Shown: positions 15,421-24,791 of the stretch, in pieces
Layout: each line of letters starts with the position of its first letter
How positions within the stretch are numbered: position 1 is the stretch's first letter
NCBI RefSeq assembly: GCF_003023845.1
Contig: NZ_PYFT01000001.1
Coordinates: 1,240,001 to 1,304,000, forward strand
DNA length: 64,000 nucleotides
DNA from: Adhaeribacter arboris
GTDB taxonomy: Bacteria > Bacteroidota > Bacteroidia > Cytophagales > Hymenobacteraceae
Direction of reading: 5' to 3'
Translations under genes and position numbers: made by a program
Notes under the pieces: generated by a model
What the model was told of the DNA's origin: nothing
The model's database searches: none
The model's input: only the letters and a program-made list of their open reading frames with translations

Positions 15421-16227
15421 TTATTCGTAGATCTGAAGGTACCGGTTTATAGAATGATCAAAAGCTTGCCGGGCATTTTGCCCGATGTGGGGCTCAAAAG
15501 CACCGTACATCCGGGCAAAACGAATATCTTCCATTGCTTTACGAATAGCCAGTATTTCGACCTGACGCAAAGGTATTAGATTAGGATACGAATACATAAA
15601 AGAAACGGATTGCCGGTCCATGGCTACCTGGAGGGTATCGCCGGATAAAACAACTCCCTGGTTATCGGCTCCGGCGGGCCAATGCAGGACACAAGCCCCC
15701 GGAAAATGCCCGCCACAATTTATAATTTTAATCCCGTCGTTCAGTTCCAGGCTTTTTCCTTCCCAGAACTGAATAGATTGGTCTGGTTGCGTTACCCACT
15801 CCTGATCAAGAGCGTGAATATAAATGGGCGCATTAACAAACGCCCGACTCCAATTAACAATAGTTGAATAATAATGCGGATGCGAAAGCGCAACGGCCTG
15901 AATACCGCCTATTTTTTTAATAAAGTTTATGGTTTCGTCGTTGAGCAGGGTAACGCAATCCCATAAAATATTCCCGTTCGGGCTTATAATTAAATGCGCT
16001 TTCTGGGCAATACCAAATTTAGGGGTAGTCTGAATTCTATATAAACCAGGTTCAACGAGTTGAATCTCGTTTTGGTACTTGCGTTGCATTTCCGCCAGAG
16101 TAGTCCAGGTTTGCCCTTGCCAATTCACGTACTGACGATCATCTTCGCAGATGATGCAATGGGCAGGTTCGGTTTCAGTTGCAGCGTACTGCACGCCACA
16201 AGTAGTACAAATAAAATTTTCCGGCAT
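15421..16227 (-). CDS. MBL-fold metallo-hydrolase with N-terminal zinc ribbon
   Basis: A 268-residue protein. Residues 6-27 form a rubredoxin-like knuckle pair (CTTC and CIIC). The metallo-beta-lactamase fold follows, with HPHYYS in place of the classical HxHxDH, then GGHFPGACVLHW (metal His), SGDT (bridging Asp) and a late His in FEPHIG. The missing Asp/His of the first motif seems to be a property of this subfamily, so the metal site may be mononuclear or redox-inactive. The substrate is unknown. It lies 163 nt downstream of hisIE on the same strand but is probably a separate gene. Confidence 0.8.
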   Translation of the reverse strand: MPENFICTTCGVQYAATETEPAHCIICEDDRQYVNWQGQTWTTLAEMQRKYQNEIQLVEPGLYRIQTTPKFGIAQKAHLIISPNGNILWDCVTLLNDETINFIKKIGGIQAVALSHPHYYSTIVNWSRAFVNAPIYIHALDQEWVTQPDQSIQFWEGKSLELNDGIKIINCGGHFPGACVLHWPAGADNQGVVLSGDTLQVAMDRQSVSFMYSYPNLIPLRQVEILAIRKAMEDIRFARMYGAFEPHIGQNARQAFDHSINRYLQIYE

Positions 16228-16390: not shown

Positions 16391-17014
16391 CTATTTACGA
16401 TGCCGCTCTTGTAATATCTGAACCACATCATGTAACTTTAAATCGGATGCTGCCAGTAAAACTAGTAAGTGATACAATAAATCCGCTACTTCTTCTTTTA
16501 AACGATCTGTATTACCCGCTACCGCGTCAATTACGGTTTCCACCGCCTCTTCCCCTACTTTTTGAGCAATTTTCTGAATTCCTTTCTCAAAAAGTAGATT
16601 CGTATAAGATTTTTCCAGCGGGTTATTTCGTCGATTCTGAATCAAATTTTCGAGGTATTCTAAAAAAACAACGCTAGCATTTTGTTCTTCAAGTAATTCA
16701 CCTTCCTGTGGTGCTGGTTCAAAACAAGTCCGGGCACCGGTATGGCAAACCGGACCAACCGGGTTTACTTTTATTAATACCGTATCCTGGTCACAATCGG
16801 CTTGGATGCTGACTACGTGCAGGAAATTACCACTGGTTTCCCCTTTGGTCCAGAGTCGGTTTTTAGTGCGGGAGAAGAAAGTAACTACTTTTTCCTGCCG
16901 CGTTTTCTCGTAAGCCTCCTGGTTCATAAATCCAACCATAAGTACTTCCTGGGTAGCGTGGTTTTGTATAACGGCTGGTAGCAGACCACCGGCTTTGGCA
17001 AAATCTAATAACAT
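16391..17014 (-). CDS. hisIE: bifunctional phosphoribosyl-AMP cyclohydrolase / phosphoribosyl-ATP diphosphatase
   Basis: Carries out steps 2 and 3 of histidine synthesis. The N-terminal HisI domain (1-110) shows [27 protein letters not shown] and the metal-binding DCDQDTVL and CHTGARTCF. The C-terminal HisE domain (about 115-207) is a helical MazG-like pyrophosphatase with [11 protein letters not shown] and [14 protein letters not shown]. At 207 residues it is the normal fused form. Last gene of the his operon; it overlaps hisF by 10 nt. Confidence 0.97.
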
Positions 17015-17766
17015 AAACGAATGGGTAAACCCTGGTTAGCTAAATATTGTTTAAGATCAGGAATTGGAATTTCTCCGAAGTGAAATATACTGGCAGCTAA
17101 GGCGGCATCCGCTTGTGCTTGATTAAAAACATCCGCAAAATGCGTCATTTGCCCGGCTCCTCCCGAAGCAATAACGGGTATCGAAACTCCTTGTGAAACG
17201 GCACCAGTAATATCTAAAGCAAAACCGTTCTTGGTACCATCATGGCTCATGGAAGTTAACAAAATTTCGCCGGCTCCTAAATCGGTAATTTGTTTTGCCC
17301 AATCTAGTGTGGCGTGTTCTGTTTCCAGCGTACCCGCGCGACTAAATACTTTCCAACCATGACTAGTTAGTTTGGTATCAATGGCCACGGTAATGCACTG
17401 ACTACCGAATCTTTTAGCCAGATCATAGACTAATTGCGGTTCTTTAATCGCGGCAGAATTAATAGAAACTTTATCAGCTCCTTCGTGTAATAAAACTTCT
17501 ACGTCGCGAATAGCACCAATACCGCCGCCAACCGTGAACGGAATATCAATGTGGCGGGCAATTTCCCGGACCAACTGGGCAAAAGTTTTACGTTCTTCGT
17601 TAGTAGCAGTAATATCTAAAAAAACCAGTTCATCGGCTCCTTGGCGAGCATACTCGGCCCCTAAGGCCACCGGGTCACCTGCATCCCGGATATTTTCGAA
17701 CATTACCCCTTTTACCGTGCGTCCGTTTTTAATATCCAGGCAAGGAATAATACGTTTGGTTAACAT
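17005..17766 (-). CDS. hisF: imidazole glycerol phosphate synthase cyclase subunit
   Basis: TIM-barrel cyclase subunit that uses ammonia from HisH to form imidazole glycerol phosphate and AICAR. The 253 residues begin [20 protein letters not shown], with the catalytic Asp at D11; the second catalytic Asp is in VAIDTK near residue 130. Phosphate-binding loops are TVGGGI and ASGGAG. It overlaps hisA upstream by 7 nt and hisIE downstream by 10 nt. Confidence 0.98.
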
Positions 17767-18482
17767 ACAAATCTTTTTAAATCAGCCAGCGAAATGGTTC
17801 CTTCGTAGATGGCTTTACCAATAATAACACCTGTTAAACCAGCTGCTCCCAGTTCCTCTACATCTTGAATAGTGGTAACCCCACCGCTCGCAATAAAACT
17901 AGCCCCGGGAAAAGTTTTGACTAGTTGGGCATACGTTTGGGTAGCCGGTCCTTGCAATTTACCATCTTTACTAACGTCGGTACAAATAAAGGTTTTAGCT
18001 GCGGCTTGTAAATATTGCTGAATAAAATCCGGGAGTGAAATTGTAGATTGTTCCGCCCAAGCATTGATAGAAATAAAGTTATCCCGGAAATCTGCTCCAA
18101 TAATTATTTTATCTGGTCCGAATGTTTCTAACCAATTCTGCACCAAATCAGGTTCCCGGACGGCGATACTACCGGCTGTAATCTGATTTGCCCCGGCATT
18201 AAAAGCCTGCTGGATAGCTTCCTCTGATTGGATGCCACCCCCAAAATCAATTATTAAATTGGTTTGACTAGCAATGGCTTCTAATACCGCTAAGTTTTGT
18301 GGTTTTCGTGCCCGAGCCCCGTCTAAATCAACTAAATGCAAGCGCGTAAGACCCGCGTCCGCAAACTGTTTTGCCACTTCCACCGGATTACTGGCATAGG
18401 TTTTTTGCTGAGCGAAATCACCTTCGGTTAAGCGCACGCATTGGCCTCCGATAATATCAATTGCCGGGATAATCTGCATCAT
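17760..18482 (-). CDS. hisA: ProFAR isomerase
   Basis: 1-(5-phosphoribosyl)-5-[(5-phosphoribosylamino)methylideneamino]imidazole-4-carboxamide isomerase, an Amadori-type TIM barrel paralogous to HisF. The 240 residues contain [19 protein letters not shown] (catalytic D9-type Asp), IDFGGGIQ, the second acid in [14 protein letters not shown], and IASGGVTT. It overlaps hisH by 4 nt and hisF by 7 nt. Confidence 0.98.
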
Positions 18483-19060
18483 AAAGCAAGAAAGTTCTGA
18501 ATAATACGCGTACCAGTCGGGCCACTTTTTTCGGTATGAAACTGCATGGCATAAAAATTTTTGTATTGTACAGCGGCACTAAAAGGCTCCGGATAAGCAC
18601 CGGTAGCAATGGTGTATTCACATACGGGTAAGTAGTAACTATGGACGAAATAAACGTAATCCTGCTCCTTTACTCCGTTAAATAAATCGCCTTTCAAATT
18701 AAATAAAGTATTCCACCCCATGTGCGGCACCTTCAAGCCATTATTAAACTTAATTACATTTATGGGCAGAATATCAAGCATTTGGGTATCGTTTTCTTCG
18801 GAATGCCGGCATAATAACTGGATGCCCAGGCAAATGCCTAAAAAAGGCTGGGTTAATTCGGGGATAACTTTATCTAAGCCTCTAGCCCTAAGTTCCTCCA
18901 TAGCGGAACTTGCTTCTCCTTCGCCCGGAAAGATAATTTTATCGGCACTACGGATAATTTCCGGATCTGCGCTCAAGGTAGCTTCGGCGCCTAATCTTTC
19001 CAGCGCAAACTTAACCGATTGCACATTGCCGCCTTTATAATCAATGATAACAATACTCAT
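18479..19060 (-). CDS. hisH: imidazole glycerol phosphate synthase glutaminase subunit
   Basis: Class I glutamine amidotransferase that supplies ammonia to HisF. The 193 residues contain DYKGGNVQSV at the N-terminus, the nucleophile Cys in FLGICLGIQLL, and the His/Glu pair in QFHTEKSG. The oxyanion-type loop is PGEGEASSAMEEL. It overlaps hisB by 1 nt and hisA by 4 nt, so the pair HisH-HisF is encoded in one tightly packed block. Confidence 0.98.
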   Translation of the reverse strand: MSIVIIDYKGGNVQSVKFALERLGAEATLSADPEIIRSADKIIFPGEGEASSAMEELRARGLDKVIPELTQPFLGICLGIQLLCRHSEENDTQMLDILPINVIKFNNGLKVPHMGWNTLFNLKGDLFNGVKEQDYVYFVHSYYLPVCEYTIATGAYPEPFSAAVQYKNFYAMQFHTEKSGPTGTRIIQNFLAL

Positions 19061-20154
19061 TATAAAATACCTTTGGTACTCGGGATTTCCATTTTGTTTA
19101 TGTCACGCGCAACCGCCATTTTAATGGACTTGGCGACTGCTTTAAAAATTGCTTCGATTTTGTGGTGTTCATTGGTACCCTCGGCCTTCACGTTCAGGTT
19201 GCATTTGGCAGCGTCGGAAAATGATTTAAAAAAATGAAAAAACATTTCCGTAGGCATATCTCCCACTCTTTCGCGTTTAAAGTCGGCTTCCCAAACTAAC
19301 CAGGGCCGACCGGAGAAATCTAAAGCTACCTGGGCTAATACATCATCCATAGGTAATAAATACCCGTATCGGCTAATTCCTCGTTTATCGCCTAACGCTT
19401 GCCCCAAAGCTTCTCCGATGGCAATGGCGGTATCTTCAATGGTATGATGTTCGTCAATATGTAAGTCTCCTTCCACTTGAATCTGCATATCGGCACCCGA
19501 ATGCTTGCTTAATTGTTCTAACATGTGATCAAAAAAGCCCAATCCCGTATGAATGCGCATTTCGCCTGTACCATCTATATTTAAATCAACTTTAATTTTA
19601 GTTTCGTTGGTATTCCGGATGATGCTGGCTTTACGGGCAGGTAAACGAAGATAGTTATAAATCTGGTCCCAGTTTTTCGCAGAATAAGCAGTTTCATTGC
19701 TTGAGTTGTTGTTCAAGTAAATTGCTTTACAACCAAGATTATCAGCCAGTTTTATGTCGGTAACTCTATCGCCAATTACATAAGAATTCATTAAATCATA
19801 ATTGCCGTTAAAGTATTTCTGTAACATCCCAATCCCTGGCTTACGGGTTGGTAGATTTTCATGCTCGAAGCTTCTATCAATCAGAATTTCAGTGAAAGTT
19901 ATTCCTTCTCCGGCTAAAATTTCCAGCATCTTGTTCTGGTAAGGCCAGAAAGTATCTTCGGGATAAGAAGAAGTACCTAATCCATCCTGATTGGTAACCA
20001 TTACAAACTCATAATCCAATTCAGATGAAATCTTAAATAAGTTTCGAATAACGCCTGGGATGAAGGAAAATTTTTCGAATGAATCAACTTGATAATCGGT
20101 TTTCGGCTCGATTAGTAATGTTCCATCCCGGTCAATAAATAAAACTTTTTTCAT
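19060..20154 (-). CDS. hisB: bifunctional histidinol-phosphatase / imidazoleglycerol-phosphate dehydratase
   Basis: Fused enzyme for steps 7 and 9 of histidine synthesis. The N-terminal HAD phosphatase (1-165) has FIDRDGTLL (nucleophile D8, D10) and [14 protein letters not shown]. The C-terminal IGPD (about 170-364) has the manganese-binding [14 protein letters not shown] and [18 protein letters not shown], and [14 protein letters not shown]. The fusion is typical of Bacteroidota and gamma-Proteobacteria. A 91-nt gap separates it from hisC, the largest in the operon; I see no terminator or promoter there. Confidence 0.97.
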
Positions 20155-20245
20155 TGAAAATTTTATAATTCTAAATATTTTAAATTGATAAAGTTCTTAT
20201 AATCAATTTAGTAAATAGTAAAACTTCATAATTACATTGAAGTAG

Positions 20246-21295
20246 CTAAATATAGCTTTTCAAACAAGTAAGGAGCCGTTCATTTTCATCTTTAGTGCCA
20301 ACAGAAACTCTCAGGCAATTCGTACAGCCCGGTTGATTGGTGCGGTTTCTAACTACAATCCCATTGTTTAACAAGTAAGAATATATCGCATTGGCATCGC
20401 TTACTTCTACCAAAATAAAATTAGCCTCTGAAGGATAAACTCTTTTAATTACGGGCAAATGCGTTAAGGCATCCGCGAGAAAATCCCGGTTCGCTTTAAT
20501 TTCATTTACCATTAAAGGTAAGCGACTGGTGTTTTGTAAAGCACTTAAGGCAATTTGTTGCGTAGCTTCGTTAATGTTATAAGGAGGCTTAATTTTATTT
20601 AAAAAAGAAATTATTTCTTCCGAGGCAAAAGCCATTCCTAATCTTAAAGCGGCCATACCCCAGGCTTTAGAAAAGGTCTGTAAAACCACCAAATTAGGGT
20701 AATTACTTAATTGCGTAGTCCAGCTTTCTTCCGCAGAAAAATCAATATACGCTTCATCTATCACGACTAAACCCGAGAAAGATTTTAGAATATATTCGAT
20801 ACTACTGCGGTTAATTAAATTCCCGCTGGGATTGTTAGGCGAGCAGATAAAAATAATTTTGATTTCCGAATGAATTTGCCCCTGCAGCTTATTTAATTGC
20901 AGCTGAAAGTTCTCGTCTAATCTAACCAGCTTTAATTCTACGTCGTTAAGATTGGCCGATACCTCGTACATGCCATAGGTAGGACTAAAAGCTAAAATTT
21001 GGTCATGGCCCGGTTGACAAACCAACCTAATTAAAAGATCGATTGCTTCGTCGGAGCCATTACCCAGAAAAATCTGTTCCGGCCGAACGGCTTTAACTTG
21101 AGCAATAGCGGCTTTTAACGCTTTTTGATGTGGGTCAGGATAACGATTGTACTGTTGGTTGGCCGCCATACTGCCCAGATTATTCTCATTCGCATCAATA
21201 AAAATGCTGGCTTCCCCTTCAAATTCATCCCGGGCGGAAGAATAAGGTTTCATGCCCCGGATATTCGGGCGTACCAAATTTGTCAGTTTAAACAT
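20246..21295 (-). CDS. hisC: histidinol-phosphate aminotransferase
   Basis: PLP-dependent class I/II aminotransferase converting imidazole acetol phosphate and glutamate to histidinol phosphate. The 349 residues contain FLGNGSDEAIDLLIR, FSPTYGMYEVSA, SPNNPSGN, VIDEAYIDF and the PLP lysine in TFSKAWGMAALRLG. The C-terminal arginine motif is LRVSVGTKDENERLL. It overlaps hisD by 8 nt. Confidence 0.97.
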   Translation of the reverse strand: MFKLTNLVRPNIRGMKPYSSARDEFEGEASIFIDANENNLGSMAANQQYNRYPDPHQKALKAAIAQVKAVRPEQIFLGNGSDEAIDLLIRLVCQPGHDQILAFSPTYGMYEVSANLNDVELKLVRLDENFQLQLNKLQGQIHSEIKIIFICSPNNPSGNLINRSSIEYILKSFSGLVVIDEAYIDFSAEESWTTQLSNYPNLVVLQTFSKAWGMAALRLGMAFASEEIISFLNKIKPPYNINEATQQIALSALQNTSRLPLMVNEIKANRDFLADALTHLPVIKRVYPSEANFILVEVSDANAIYSYLLNNGIVVRNRTNQPGCTNCLRVSVGTKDENERLLTCLKSYI

Positions 21296-22580
21296 GAGAT
21301 AAACTTTTTAAACGAATACTAACCGCTTGCCGATGGGCATCCAAACCTTCGGCATCGGCCATTACCTCTACCGTAGGACCAATTAATTGTAAACCTTGCG
21401 GAGTAAGATGCTGATAAGTAATTTTTTTAACAAATGAATCTAAGGAAACCCCGCTGTAGACCCGGGCATAGCCGTTGGTAGGTAATGTATGATTTGTTCC
21501 GGAAGCATAATCCCCCACTGATTCCGGACTATACTCACCTAAAAAAACGGAACCGGCATTGGTAATTTTCTCGGCTAATTGCTCATATTCTTTTACAGCT
21601 ATTATCAAGTGTTCGGGGGCGTACAGATTAGAAAAAGCCAGCATTTCAGTTGAATCTTTCAGTAGAATTCCTAAACTGTTGGTTAAGGTTTTGGCGGCAA
21701 TAGCTTTACGGGATAGATTATTCAATTGCTCTTTCAAAGATTCCTCCACTAATGAAAGTAATTTTTCGGAATTTGTAACAAACACTACCTGTGAATCTAC
21801 GCCATGCTCCGCCTGCGAAAGTAAATCAGCCGCCACAAATGCTGGATTGGCAGTTTCATCGGCAATTATTAAAACTTCCGAAGGACCGGCCGGCATATCA
21901 ATAGCCACACCGTACTTACCGGCCATTTGCTTAGCGACCGTAACGAATTGGTTTCCGGGACCGAATATTTTAGAAACGGCTGGTATGGATTCGGTACCAA
22001 AAGTAAGTGCCGCAATAGCCTGACTTCCTCCCACTTTCCGGATAGTCGAAATTTGAAGTAGGGAAGCCGTAAATAAAATAGCAGGATGAATGGTTCCATC
22101 TTGCCGGGGTGGCGTGCATAACACAATTTCCTGGCAACCGGCTAGTTTAGCAGGAATACCTAACATTAATAAGGTAGAAAATAAAGGAGCCGTACCACCC
22201 GGAATGTAAAGGCCTACCTTTTCAATCGCCACACTTTTGCGCCAGCAACGAACCCCGGGCATTGTTTCGATGGGAAATTTAACTTCGCGTTGGCTCTCGT
22301 GGAAAGCAGTTATGTTGGCGCAGGCTTGCCGAATAGCTAATTGTAATTCCTGAGGTATTTGCTCAGCGGCCACCTTTAACTCTTCCGGGGTAACCAGCAA
22401 ACTATTTAAACTTACCTTATCAAACTGGGCCGTAAAGTCTAATAAAGCTTTATCTCCGTTATCGCGTACCTGGTTAAAAACAGTTTTAATTTGTTCCTCA
22501 ATGGTTTCATACTCTTGTACGGGTCGCTTTATTAACTCTGGCCAGGTTGCCCGATCAGGGTATACTACTTTCTTTAACAT
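21288..22580 (-). CDS. hisD: histidinol dehydrogenase
   Basis: Zinc enzyme that oxidises histidinol to histidine in two NAD-dependent steps. The 430 residues show the family blocks VGLYIPGGTAPLFSTLLML, PAGPSEVLIIADETANP, LLSQAEHGVDSQVVFVT (zinc/catalytic His) and YASGTNHTLPTNGYARVYSG. It overlaps hisG by 1 nt (TAATG) and hisC by 8 nt. Confidence 0.98.
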   Translation of the reverse strand: MLKKVVYPDRATWPELIKRPVQEYETIEEQIKTVFNQVRDNGDKALLDFTAQFDKVSLNSLLVTPEELKVAAEQIPQELQLAIRQACANITAFHESQREVKFPIETMPGVRCWRKSVAIEKVGLYIPGGTAPLFSTLLMLGIPAKLAGCQEIVLCTPPRQDGTIHPAILFTASLLQISTIRKVGGSQAIAALTFGTESIPAVSKIFGPGNQFVTVAKQMAGKYGVAIDMPAGPSEVLIIADETANPAFVAADLLSQAEHGVDSQVVFVTNSEKLLSLVEESLKEQLNNLSRKAIAAKTLTNSLGILLKDSTEMLAFSNLYAPEHLIIAVKEYEQLAEKITNAGSVFLGEYSPESVGDYASGTNHTLPTNGYARVYSGVSLDSFVKKITYQHLTPQGLQLIGPTVEVMADAEGLDAHRQAVSIRLKSLSHV

Positions 22581-23431
22581 TACAATATCATTTTCTCAAT
22601 GGGTACCACCAATATACCTTGGGCGCCTGCTTCGCGTAATTTTTGAATAATTTCCCAGAAGTCGTCTTCGTTCACCACCGAATGTACTGAGCTCCAGCCT
22701 TCTTCGGTTAAAGGTAAAATAGAAGGAGCTTTCATGCCAGGCAATAAAGACTTAATCCGGGGAATGGCTGCATTAGGAGCGTTCAATAAAATATATTTTG
22801 CTTTTTGGGCTTTTCTGACGGCATCAATCCGGAATAATAATTGATTTAAGATTTGCCGTTTTACTTCCGTTAGTTTTGGATGGGCAATTAAAACCGCTTC
22901 GGAGCGAAAAACTGTTTGCACTTCGCGCAAGCCATTACTAATTAAAGTACTACCCGAGGAAACAATGTCGCAAATAGCATCGGCTAAGCCAATACTGGGG
23001 GCAATTTCTACGGAACCGCTAATGGTATGAATATGAGCTTGCACGCCTTCGCCGGATAAATAAGCCTGCAGTAAATTAGGGTAAGAGGTAGCAATATTTT
23101 TACCTTCCAACCCTGAAATATCATCATAAACTGTATTTTTAGGAACGGCAATAGATAACCGGCATTGCGAAAAACCTAATTTTTGCACCTGCAGTTCTTG
23201 TTTACCTTCTTCCACTAAAACGTTTTCCCCTACAATTCCTATGTCGGCAACCCCGTCTGCTACGTAACCGGGTATGTCATCGTCGCGCAGAAATAAGATT
23301 TCGAGCGGAAAGTTAGTGGCTTCAGTTTTAAGTTTTAAAGAAGAGTTAACAAAAGAAATACCGCATTCCCGAATAAGATTAAGAGAGTCTTCGCTTAATC
23401 TACCCGACTTTTGAATGGCTAATCGAATCAT
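22580..23431 (-). CDS. hisG: ATP phosphoribosyltransferase (long form)
   Basis: First and committed step of histidine synthesis, normally feedback-inhibited by histidine. The 283 residues represent the long form: two periplasmic-binding-like catalytic lobes (LAIQKSGRLSEDSLNLIRECG; DIVSSGSTLISNGL, the PRPP loop) and a C-terminal ACT-like regulatory domain (about 210-283, ending IEKMIL). It is the first enzyme gene of the operon. A histidine-rich leader peptide ends 96 nt upstream, so expression is probably controlled by attenuation as well as by feedback. Confidence 0.97.
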   Translation of the reverse strand: MIRLAIQKSGRLSEDSLNLIRECGISFVNSSLKLKTEATNFPLEILFLRDDDIPGYVADGVADIGIVGENVLVEEGKQELQVQKLGFSQCRLSIAVPKNTVYDDISGLEGKNIATSYPNLLQAYLSGEGVQAHIHTISGSVEIAPSIGLADAICDIVSSGSTLISNGLREVQTVFRSEAVLIAHPKLTEVKRQILNQLLFRIDAVRKAQKAKYILLNAPNAAIPRIKSLLPGMKAPSILPLTEEGWSSVHSVVNEDDFWEIIQKLREAGAQGILVVPIEKMIL

Positions 23432-23487
23432 TTTTTAATTTATATACTTCCTGAATATTAAAATTAAGAGCCGTTTGCAAGACAGCT

Positions 23488-23545
23488 AAAAACCAGGAGT
23501 TTCCTCCGCTCCGAACATAAATAATTTTATTCTCCGCGGGAGGAA
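23488..23545 (-). promoter_or_regulatory. attenuator-like alternative RNA structures of the his operon
   Basis: On the minus strand, TTCCTCCCGC (23545-23536, inside the last leader codons) can pair with GCGGAGGAA (23509-23501) with one bulge. Alternatively GGAG (23507-23504) pairs with CTCC (23499-23496) around a GAAA loop followed by TGGTTTTT (to 23488). The two are mutually exclusive. A ribosome stalled at the first His codons would leave the 5' arm free and favour the first form; one at the stop codon would cover it and favour the second. The terminator stem is only 4 bp, so this is provisional. Confidence 0.5.
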
Positions 23546-23637
23546 TGATGGTAATGGTGGAAATGGACAGCAAAAACAAACGCATGAGAAAGCGCTAAAA
23601 GAGGAAGATTGCTGTATGTTTTGCTGCTTTTCATCAT
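23527..23637 (-). CDS. histidine-rich leader peptide of the his operon
   Basis: A 36-codon frame between a promoter and hisG. After a hydrophobic start (MMKSSKTYSNLPLLALSHAF) it reads VFAVHFHHYHHSSRGE: five of the seven residues 25-31 are His, six in all. This is the hallmark of a his-operon attenuator peptide, like HisL of enterobacteria, though the sequence is unrelated. Two ATG codons open it; the first, at 23637, is 9 nt after a -7 element, so the message begins almost at the peptide. The mRNA after the His run can form mutually exclusive hairpins. It ends 95 nt before hisG. It would sense charged tRNA-His. Confidence 0.8.
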   Translation of the reverse strand: MMKSSKTYSNLPLLALSHAFVFAVHFHHYHHSSRGE

Positions 23638-23646
23638 AAGATGGTG

Positions 23647-23654
23647 CAAATGTA
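23647..23654 (-). promoter_or_regulatory. -7 promoter element of the his operon
   Basis: TACATTTG on the minus strand is a perfect TAnnTTTG. It lies 9 nt before the first leader ATG. A GTTTTT about 18 nt upstream is a weak -33 candidate. The same octamer precedes the tRNA gene at 57867. Confidence 0.6.
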
Positions 23655-23893
23655 AGCCAGAAAATGAATTATAAAAACTTATCTTAATTTTTTCTGATAC
23701 CTCACACTTTTCTGAATACATTTTTGTAATTTGCCGCTAATTTATAGAATATAACCATTTTTATTATACCATAAATTCTATTTTTTATATACTTACCTTG
23801 TACTCTGGCATTATTTTTTACTTCTGAATAAAATATCTTACTCCAATCTTAGTTAAACTAAAATGGTTGTTCCTAACAGAAACTATTAACTTT

Positions 23894-23901
23894 TAAGTTT
23901 G
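23894..23901 (+). promoter_or_regulatory. -7 promoter element of the DUF2911 gene
   Basis: TAAGTTTG matches TAnnTTTG, 11 nt before the start codon at 23913. TTG at 23867 is a distant -33 candidate (24-nt gap). It fires away from the his promoter on the other strand. Confidence 0.4.
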
Positions 23902-23912
23902 TTCTTTTTGCT

Positions 23913-24791
23913 ATGCGAGCTATACTAGCTATTATCTGTATCAGTTTTCTTTTTTTTTCGCCATTAGCTAAGGCGCAATTACGCTTCCCGCAACCTAGCC
24001 CGGCTGCTACTATACTACAAACCATTGGTTTAACGGAAGTAACTCTTAAATACCATACTCCCGGCGTAAAAAGCCGGGAAATTTGGGGGAAATTAGTTCC
24101 GTATAACGAAGTTTGGCGGACGGGAGCCAATGAGGCTACTCTTATTACCTTTTCGGACGCGGTAAAGATAAACGGGGAGAATGTGGCAGCCGGGACGTAT
24201 AGTTTGTTTTCCTTCCCCCAAAGTTCCGATTCGTGCCTGTTTATTTTAAATAAAAATACTACTTTATGGGGTACGAAGGGCTACAATCCCCAAGAAGATG
24301 TATTACGAGTACCCGCTCAAGTTAAAGAAGCTCCCTTCCACGAAACCTTTCAGTTTAGTTTTTCTAACGTTTCGCAAAATGCAGGCACTTTGAGTTTTCT
24401 TTGGGAGCGTAAGGAATTTTCCGTAATAATAGAAGTCGACACGGATGCTAAGGTATTGGCCATGTTGCAGGAAGACTTAAACAAAGCCAAACCCAATGAT
24501 TGGCAGATTTATGCGCAGGCAACCAATTACTTGATTTCGAAAAATACTCAACACGAATTAGCCTTACAGTGGATTGATAAATCGTTAACTATTAACGATA
24601 ACTTTTTTAATAATTGGATTAAGGCACAACTGTTAGCTCAAAAAGAAGAATACGAAGGAGCCGTAGATTTGTGTAAAAAAGCCATCAAACTAGGTAAAAA
24701 GGACCAGGAAGAATATAAAAAATACGAATCAAGTATTGAGCGCAACTTTAGCCTCTGGAAGTTTAAACGACACGAAGGAGACATGAATTAA
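23913..24791 (+). CDS. DUF2911 domain exported protein
   Basis: A 292-residue secreted or periplasmic protein. A signal peptide (about 1-21, MRAILAIICISFLFFSPLAKA) precedes a DUF2911 domain (about 22-175), recognisable from PSPAATILQTIGLTEVTLKYHTPGVKSREIWG, YNEVWRTGANEAT and INGENVAAGTYSLFSFP. The C-terminal third is helical and TPR-like (LALQWIDKSLTINDNFFNNWIKAQLLAQKEEYEGAVDLCKKAI). DUF2911 proteins are common in Bacteroidota and have no proven function. Single gene, divergent from the his operon. Confidence 0.88.
   Translation: MRAILAIICISFLFFSPLAKAQLRFPQPSPAATILQTIGLTEVTLKYHTPGVKSREIWGKLVPYNEVWRTGANEATLITFSDAVKINGENVAAGTYSLFSFPQSSDSCLFILNKNTTLWGTKGYNPQEDVLRVPAQVKEAPFHETFQFSFSNVSQNAGTLSFLWERKEFSVIIEVDTDAKVLAMLQEDLNKAKPNDWQIYAQATNYLISKNTQHELALQWIDKSLTINDNFFNNWIKAQLLAQKEEYEGAVDLCKKAIKLGKKDQEEYKKYESSIERNFSLWKFKRHEGDMN

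Follow-up and report, generated by a model that had tools for sequence, protein, structure and literature searches.

The his operon of Adhaeribacter arboris is preceded by a short reading frame with clustered histidine codons, which raises two questions: whether this frame is the leader peptide of an attenuator, and which signal would then stop transcription ahead of hisG. The locus lies in a window of 64,000 nucleotides (the whole stretch of DNA that was analysed), to which coordinates refer unless a contig position is given. An earlier note on this DNA had proposed a histidine leader whose translation decides between two mutually exclusive RNA structures.

Leader frame and operon structure

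The his operon comprises eight genes on the minus strand, of which hisG, in its long form, is the first (22580..23431; PF01634, E 1.8e-53; PF08029; TIGR00070). Pfam domains give the order of the remainder (16391..22580, minus strand) as hisD, hisC, hisB, hisH, hisA, hisF and hisI(E), the assignment of hisA and hisF between the two His_biosynth genes being putative. Upstream, on the same strand, the sequence contains a -7 element, TACATTTG (23654-23647), which is of the TANNTTTG type and lies 9 nt before the first ATG (23637) of a leader frame of 36 codons plus stop (23527..23637). The frame translates as MMKSSKTYSNLPLLALSHAFVFAVHFHHYHHSSRGE, has a second ATG at 23634, and ends with its stop codon at 23527, 95 nt before the hisG ATG (23431); its position and its histidine cluster are conserved in relatives. 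A mechanical list of open reading frames opens it at 23721, upstream of the -7 element. The putative regulatory codons, HFHHYHH at residues 25-31, occupy 23545..23565 (minus strand), and FAVHFHHYH is intact or almost intact in the three closest congeners (L082-L084). The coordinates and residue numbers that the earlier note had given for these features are correct.

Bacteroidota promoters and start-codon recognition differ from those of E. coli. Given a transcription start a few bases after the -7 element, the usual spacing, the leader mRNA would be almost leaderless. Across the leader promoter from the operon lies a divergent DUF2911 gene of 292 aa (23913-24791, plus strand), and a 268-aa frame downstream of the operon (15421-16227, minus strand) has no Pfam match and an NCBIfam PvdO match far below threshold. 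The four closest congeners all have a CAGGAAG motif in a similar place; in the window it stands 15 nt before the hisG ATG (23447-23453), and it has partial complementarity to CTCCTG in the hairpin T1 described below.

Candidate RNA structures and the proposed switch

Between the histidine codons and hisG, folding of the minus strand brings out a candidate terminator, T1 (GGAG-GAAA-CTCC, 23496..23507), which is separated by TGG from a TTTTT tract (23488..23492). Its 5' arm is included in GCGGAGGAA (23501..23509), the 3' strand of an antiterminator in the folding model; the 5' strand, UUCCUCCCGC (23536..23545), lies inside the codons HHSSR and is taken from the minimum-energy structure with the ribosome at the first histidine codons. 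In the sequence itself, TTCCTCCCGC (23545-23536) is complementary to GCGGAGGAA (23509-23501) with one bulged C. The minimum-energy fold also has a 5' stem upstream of the histidine codons, whose 3' strand, UGUUUUUGCUGU (23567..23578, minus strand), pairs with 23617-23627, and a similar complementarity between ACAGCAAA and UUUGCUGU can be seen by eye in L082-L084. A consensus fold of the four congeners contains T1 and an inner hairpin, with little covariation (-0.38).

From these segments, leader translation, ribosome stalling, premature termination and the role of T1 as the stop signal may be inferred in the following order. Transcription would start a few bases before the leader ATG, as judged from the -7 element, and a ribosome would translate the leader behind RNA polymerase. 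Were charged His-tRNA scarce, the ribosome would wait at the first histidine codons (H25-H28) and leave UUCCUCCCGC free to pair with GCGGAGGAA; T1 would be blocked and transcription would enter hisG. With ample histidine, a ribosome at the stop codon would cover UUCCUCCCGC, T1 would form, and transcription would tend to end at the U tract after it.

This scheme was examined with a partition-function model in which the ribosome hides the RNA as far as 13 nt beyond the first base of the A-site codon, only the remainder being folded, for the window (L081), the congeners L082, L083 and L084, and relatives. In the window, T1 has a probability of 0.00 when H25, F26, H27 or H28 is in the A site and of 0.03 for Y29; the value is 0.98 for H30 and 0.94 from H31 onwards, up to the stop. 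The switch thus falls between Y29 and H30, so that stalls at the first four codons of the run would antiterminate and later ones would not. From the first histidine to the stop, T1 rises from 0.14 to 0.99 in L083 and from 0.10 to 0.99 in L084; L082 has 0.65 at the first histidine, 0.91 at the stop and lower values between, without a switch. When the stretch from the stall site to T1 is shuffled, T1 is equally low in 3/300 (L081), 84/300 (L082), 15/300 (L083) and 9/300 (L084) shuffles, figures that are not independent because the four loci are related. With other transcript ends, T1 in L081 to L084 is 0.00, 0.65, 0.44 and 0.10 at the first histidine and 0.95, 0.91, 1.0 and 1.0 at the stop. In transcripts extended through a second hairpin, T2 (see below), it is 0.97, 0.96, 0.01 and 1.0 at the stop; L083 is thus left without T1 whether the ribosome is at the first histidine (0.03) or at the stop (0.01).

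The switch of the earlier note therefore holds in the model for the window, L083 and L084, where T1 is low at the first histidine and high at the stop, but not for L082; it is plausible and goes in the right direction. As its output, a terminator at T1 fares less evenly: T1 forms at the stop in the model, but the hairpin is weak, the U tract is interrupted, L082 is static, and L083 loses T1 when the transcript runs through T2. The doubt that had been voiced over the terminator stem is well founded, since T1 in the window has 4 pairs and amounts to -4.7 kcal/mol alone; its tail in L082 reads TGGTTGT. With only 4 pairs, T1 lies below the threshold of a simple terminator scan, which does not report it. 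The chances that T1 and the antiterminator as drawn control the operon are about even.

Applied at equilibrium to 113 loci, the model gives a mean terminator probability of 0.62 at the first histidine, 0.72 at the stop and 0.67 in shuffles. It yields no general switch across these loci, 21 of which lie at or below 0.05 of 40 shuffles. Strong terminators dominate at equilibrium regardless of the ribosome, so the model neither confirms nor refutes the distant leaders. Many of the Hymenobacter "terminators" picked in this comparison are far downstream and probably meaningless.

Other amino acid leaders in the same genome

The genome contains two further leaders with strong terminators, which support an attenuation mechanism. 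A Trp-Trp leader frame, MKMKQLYTAGWWHLLEF (contig position 6732156-6732209; L281 1157-1210), precedes a gene for a chorismate-binding enzyme of the TrpE/PabB type and is followed, 40 nt on, by a hairpin of -17.1 kcal/mol with a T run. GTGAACT, directly after its stop, has its complement, AGTTCAC, in the terminator hairpin, a textbook arrangement. A Phe/Tyr-rich frame, MIMKRITNAFYFYYYFFSTSPGS (contig position 677948-678019, minus strand; L284), precedes a prephenate dehydratase gene and has a hairpin of -16.4 kcal/mol with a T run. Before one homoserine dehydrogenase gene there is no candidate threonine leader, and before one acetolactate synthase gene a search for an isoleucine/valine/leucine leader gave only ambiguous aliphatic-rich frames.

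A variant RNA in relatives

Related loci were collected in two sets. Set A, nearly all Hymenobacteraceae, consists of the best 80 HisG relatives and 24 further loci (L081-L104), from which L085, L087 and L088 were removed as copies of L001, L002 and L007; 101 loci remain, or 98 after removal of identical 400-nt upstream sequences. Set B covers more distant Bacteroidota and joins 36 loci returned by searches to 100 hand-picked ones, about one per genus, drawn from the genomes with a HisG match (148 in the order, at least 315 in the phylum); it has 136 loci, 135 of them distinct. Of the 53 histidine leaders of set B, 43 are followed by a hairpin that has a T-rich tail and reaches at least -9 kcal/mol, by cut-offs chosen after inspection of the data; in set A, only 19 of 91 have a strong hairpin with a T tail within 60 nt.

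A different RNA appears among 107 leaders examined from the Hymenobacteraceae and from families f5, f9 and f19 of the order. In a hairpin search that had no chance control, the best hairpin close to the leader stop has that codon in its loop in 90 of these; the stop comes after the hairpin in 10 and before it in 7. A CAUAUNG-like motif follows the stop hairpin after 7-9 nt in 70 of the 107 (L003-L097, L118, L192), and the combined element has no Rfam match in the loci scanned. Rufibacter roseus (L023) has its stop outside the hairpin, yet the 8-nt spacing to CAUAUNG is unchanged. The spacer thus goes with the hairpin rather than with the stop codon, which would point to an element read by RNA polymerase or a protein, not by the ribosome alone. 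Two further, competing hairpins share the segment GG(G/A), which pairs in hairpin A with a preceding GYCC and in hairpin B with a following YCC.

Individual folding of the motif-bearing leaders covered 70-odd rows, those before L143. The 67 distinct motif-bearing stretches gave alignments of 36 and 27 rows, with L032 (a near copy of L031), L143 and L192 (which aligned badly) and L231 (spurious) set aside. In the 27 Hymenobacter-type rows, 92.8% of the cells of the stop hairpin and hairpin B are paired, slid versions reaching at most 60.2%; six pairs, of which B contributes five, have changes in both strands, and on no measure does any of 500 shuffles score as high. Hairpin B carries this signal, with 5 of its 8 pairs changed on both sides and 88% of its cells paired. 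The stop-codon hairpin, with 6 of 8 pairs invariant, hardly varies, so that covariation is uninformative on it. In 34 Pontibacter-type rows, RNAalifold predicts only the stop-codon hairpin and hairpin A.

These relatives bear on the leading alternative for the window, in which stalling senses histidine but the output in this family is no intrinsic terminator; stalling would act on pausing of RNA polymerase, on access for Rho or on some other RNA switch, and T1 would be a relic or a pausing hairpin. T1 is indeed weak next to the hairpins of -16 to -17 kcal/mol that this genome has behind its trp and phe leaders, the stop hairpin and spaced CAUAUNG recur in most of the leaders examined, and in Hymenobacter the covarying next hairpin runs into GC-rich sequence with no U tract. 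The window and its closest congeners, however, have no CAUAUNG element, and in three of these four loci the T1 switch of the model takes the classical direction. An output of this kind appears unlikely. Ribosome-mediated attenuation of the his operon by this leader, with some latitude on the stop signal, is the probable reading; stalling on the leader very probably senses histidine shortage and switches the his genes on, which is a known kind of control.

For the relatives, a tentative possibility is that a new RNA switch has taken the place of the classical U-tract terminator in most Hymenobacteraceae studied here and in a few loci from other families of the order. Its parts might be, again tentatively, a stop-loop hairpin AUUCCUC-NNNN-GAGGAAU, a fixed spacer of 7-9 nt, the seemingly invariant segment CAUAUNGYCC, and hairpins A (GYCC/GGRY) and B (GGRY/RYCC), competing for one GG(G/A). 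If so, the species of the window would represent a derived line in which CAUAUNG was lost and a weak terminator formed anew. The natural series, from terminators of -15 to -20 kcal/mol down to none visible, is of interest for how the output of an attenuator gets replaced.

Some loci depart from these patterns in other ways. In A. aerolatus and two congeners (L001, L086, L002), the leader stop lies inside GAGGAATAAT, which is complementary to ATTATTCCTC, followed by Ts; by this pairing, a ribosome that has reached the stop would keep the terminator from forming, the reverse of the usual logic. A ATTCGTGTTTGRGTTNTATCTTTGA stretch with a TANNTTTG -7 element is conserved about 20-45 nt before hisG in L001, L002, L007 and L086 and is a possible second promoter between attenuator and hisG; TATCTTTG occurs before hisG in several Rufibacter/Sabulibacter loci as well. 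A segment of the (A/C)AUAU type at about leader codon 7-9 resembles the CAUAUNG behind the stop hairpin in L073 and in several loci of Pontibacter/Rufibacter; L073 has CATATCGCCC early in the leader and CATATTGTCC after it.

A second hairpin downstream of T1

Immediately after the T tract lies T2 (AGCTGT-CTTGCAA-ACGGCT, 23469..23487, minus strand), whose tail, CTTAATTTT, contains T. The earlier note had overlooked it. T2 may be seen as the true terminator, with T1 as a helper hairpin: it is predicted by folding, it is reported by the simple terminator scan (2 sites found against 0.2 expected), and the hairpin is retained with different letters in L082-L084, hence in all four congeners. Its modelled behaviour is wrong for such a role. 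With the ribosome at the first histidine, the probability of T2 is 0.99, 1.0, 0.89 and 1.0 in the four congeners, and at the stop it is 0.19, 1.0, 0.0 and 1.0; it is not lower under starvation, so T2 would be unregulated or would switch the wrong way. T2 was rejected as the regulated terminator on this ground, and there is only a slight chance that it has that role.

Conservation of the histidine cluster

In the 400 nt upstream of hisG, the best histidine cluster has 5 His in 8 residues, which 0 of 2000 dinucleotide shuffles of that stretch match. The leader alone has at least 4 His in 8 among the 732 short ATG frames of the window (both tests used ATG frames of at most 75 aa, the window count covering both strands). 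At the same threshold, a cluster precedes hisG in 94 of 101 loci of set A (91 of 98 distinct sequences) and in 53 of 136 loci of set B (53 of 135), as compared with 0/101 and 0/136 on the antisense strand and 2/1010 and 3/1360 in shuffles. The set A sequences below it are L061, L071, L076, L077, L078, L079 and L100, of which L061, L076 and L078 have a cluster of 3.

Split by kinship label, the distinct loci of set B reach the threshold in 10 of 71 cases outside the family but within the order, in 33 of 41 cases in the remaining orders of the class, and in 10 of 23 cases farther out in the phylum. Within the order, family f19 has the cluster in 8 of 8 loci, and none is found at 4 His in 8 in families f2, f4, f11, f14, f15, f16, f18, f20 and f22. 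A short frame with clustered histidine codons is therefore conserved upstream of hisG in relatives, as the earlier note had expected. Relatives that lack one, which it would have counted against the leader, are the rule in other families of the order but not in set A. The low count in those families may reflect loss or replacement by lineage, and the distribution as a whole suggests that a leader of histidine codons before hisG is common in Bacteroidota.

The -7 element is also widespread, with TANNTTTG nearby in 114 of the 147 leaders that have at least 4 His in 8. The distance from its last base to the ATG has its mode at 9 nt (28 loci) and is 6-11 nt in 68 loci, with a second group at 16-21 nt in 38. 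An element of this type occurs in 42 of 1422 antisense 60-nt windows, a figure for orientation and not a matched control, because the stretches searched in the leaders were longer.

The histidine run reads VHFHHYHHSSRGE in the window and L082, FLHCFHHHHSSHEE in A. aerolatus, HHFHHSS in Pontibacter, HHHLHGHHSSF in Hymenobacter, and LHHHHFHNCSQAMC or HIHHHHSLPKR in distant relatives. Indels inside the leader frame are of 3, 6 or 9 nt in a 35-row Pontibacter-type alignment. Outside the run, peptide sequence and length vary freely among relatives while the place before hisG is constant, which points to a leader whose histidine codons are what matters. The same pattern tells against a small His-rich protein with a function of its own, such as metal binding, for which the clustering of the histidines might speak; there is also no Pfam or NCBIfam match for the frame, DUF2418 being sub-threshold (E 0.096). 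An independent protein was rejected on these grounds as very improbable. A chance run of histidine codons in a non-functional frame, in favour of which nothing was found, is contradicted by the shuffle, antisense and conservation controls and has a negligible probability. Together with the frame itself and the eight his genes behind it, the cluster controls bear out the proposal of a histidine leader peptide ahead of the operon, and the leader is very probably real.

Relation to known systems

The enterobacterial his leader, HisL, is a short translated frame of histidine codons before hisG, followed by mutually exclusive hairpins and a terminator. The locus in the window resembles it in having a cluster of histidine codons before hisG, segments for mutually exclusive hairpins and a candidate terminator; it differs in its Bacteroidota-type promoter and in a terminator that is much weaker than the textbook one. 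The HisL profile of Pfam has no match in the mechanical frame of 64 aa within which the 36-aa leader lies. The corresponding Rfam family, given as RF00514 in passages of PMC9413887, is absent from 23300-23950 at E up to 5, where two unrelated chance hits appear. At gathering score, the only Rfam match in the whole window is a tRNA, a His T-box riboswitch giving none, and no family matches in 20 related loci. The earlier note had seen no resemblance of the peptide to HisL beyond the His run, and the profiles of the enterobacterial family give no match. The independent origin that had been drawn from this is not supported; the leader is old and broad in Bacteroidota.

The closest case in print is Flavobacterium psychrophilum, for which passages of Guerin et al. 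2021 (PMC9723704) describe strong indications that amino acid operons are attenuated through leader peptides encoded ahead of them, as well as a structured 5' element before hisG that is kept in other Flavobacteriaceae. Phylum, gene and proposed mechanism are the same as in the window; those passages hold no hisG peptide sequence for comparison. In Firmicutes, histidine attenuators are described for the Bacillus cereus group, Peptostreptococcaceae and Erysipelotrichales in passages of Ashniev et al. 2022 (PMC9413887). As there presented, they are like the window in their terminator and antiterminator hairpins, in 3-5 histidine codons in a row and in the lack of a match to RF00514, and unlike it in phylum and in the downstream RNA. 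The text of that paper has 0 occurrences of Bacteroidetes. Passages of Naville and Gautheret 2010 (PMC2965389) state that none was known outside Proteobacteria and Actinobacteria before their own cases in bacilli, and in the accessible part of a 2021 study of his genes in the Bacteroidota superphylum (PMC8305728) the word "leader" is absent. The literature searched, mostly without subscription papers, holds no earlier report of a histidine leader in Hymenobacteraceae. Work by Vitreschak et al. from 2004 on attenuators may mention Bacteroidetes/Chlorobi.

The leader is probably a further case of the already known amino acid attenuation, with a variant RNA in its relatives. It provides a named, testable case of histidine-codon attenuation in a phylum with little experimental work on his regulation. 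Since attenuation needs a ribosome close behind RNA polymerase, a working leader also bears on transcription-translation coupling in Bacteroidota. In the trp attenuator of E. coli, the leader stop lies between segments 1 and 2, and a leader stop in a hairpin loop is a feature that this attenuator shares with the relatives of the window. In the window itself, in contrast, a weak hairpin (CUCC-CGC-GGAG) occupies this place, with the stop codon on its 3' side.
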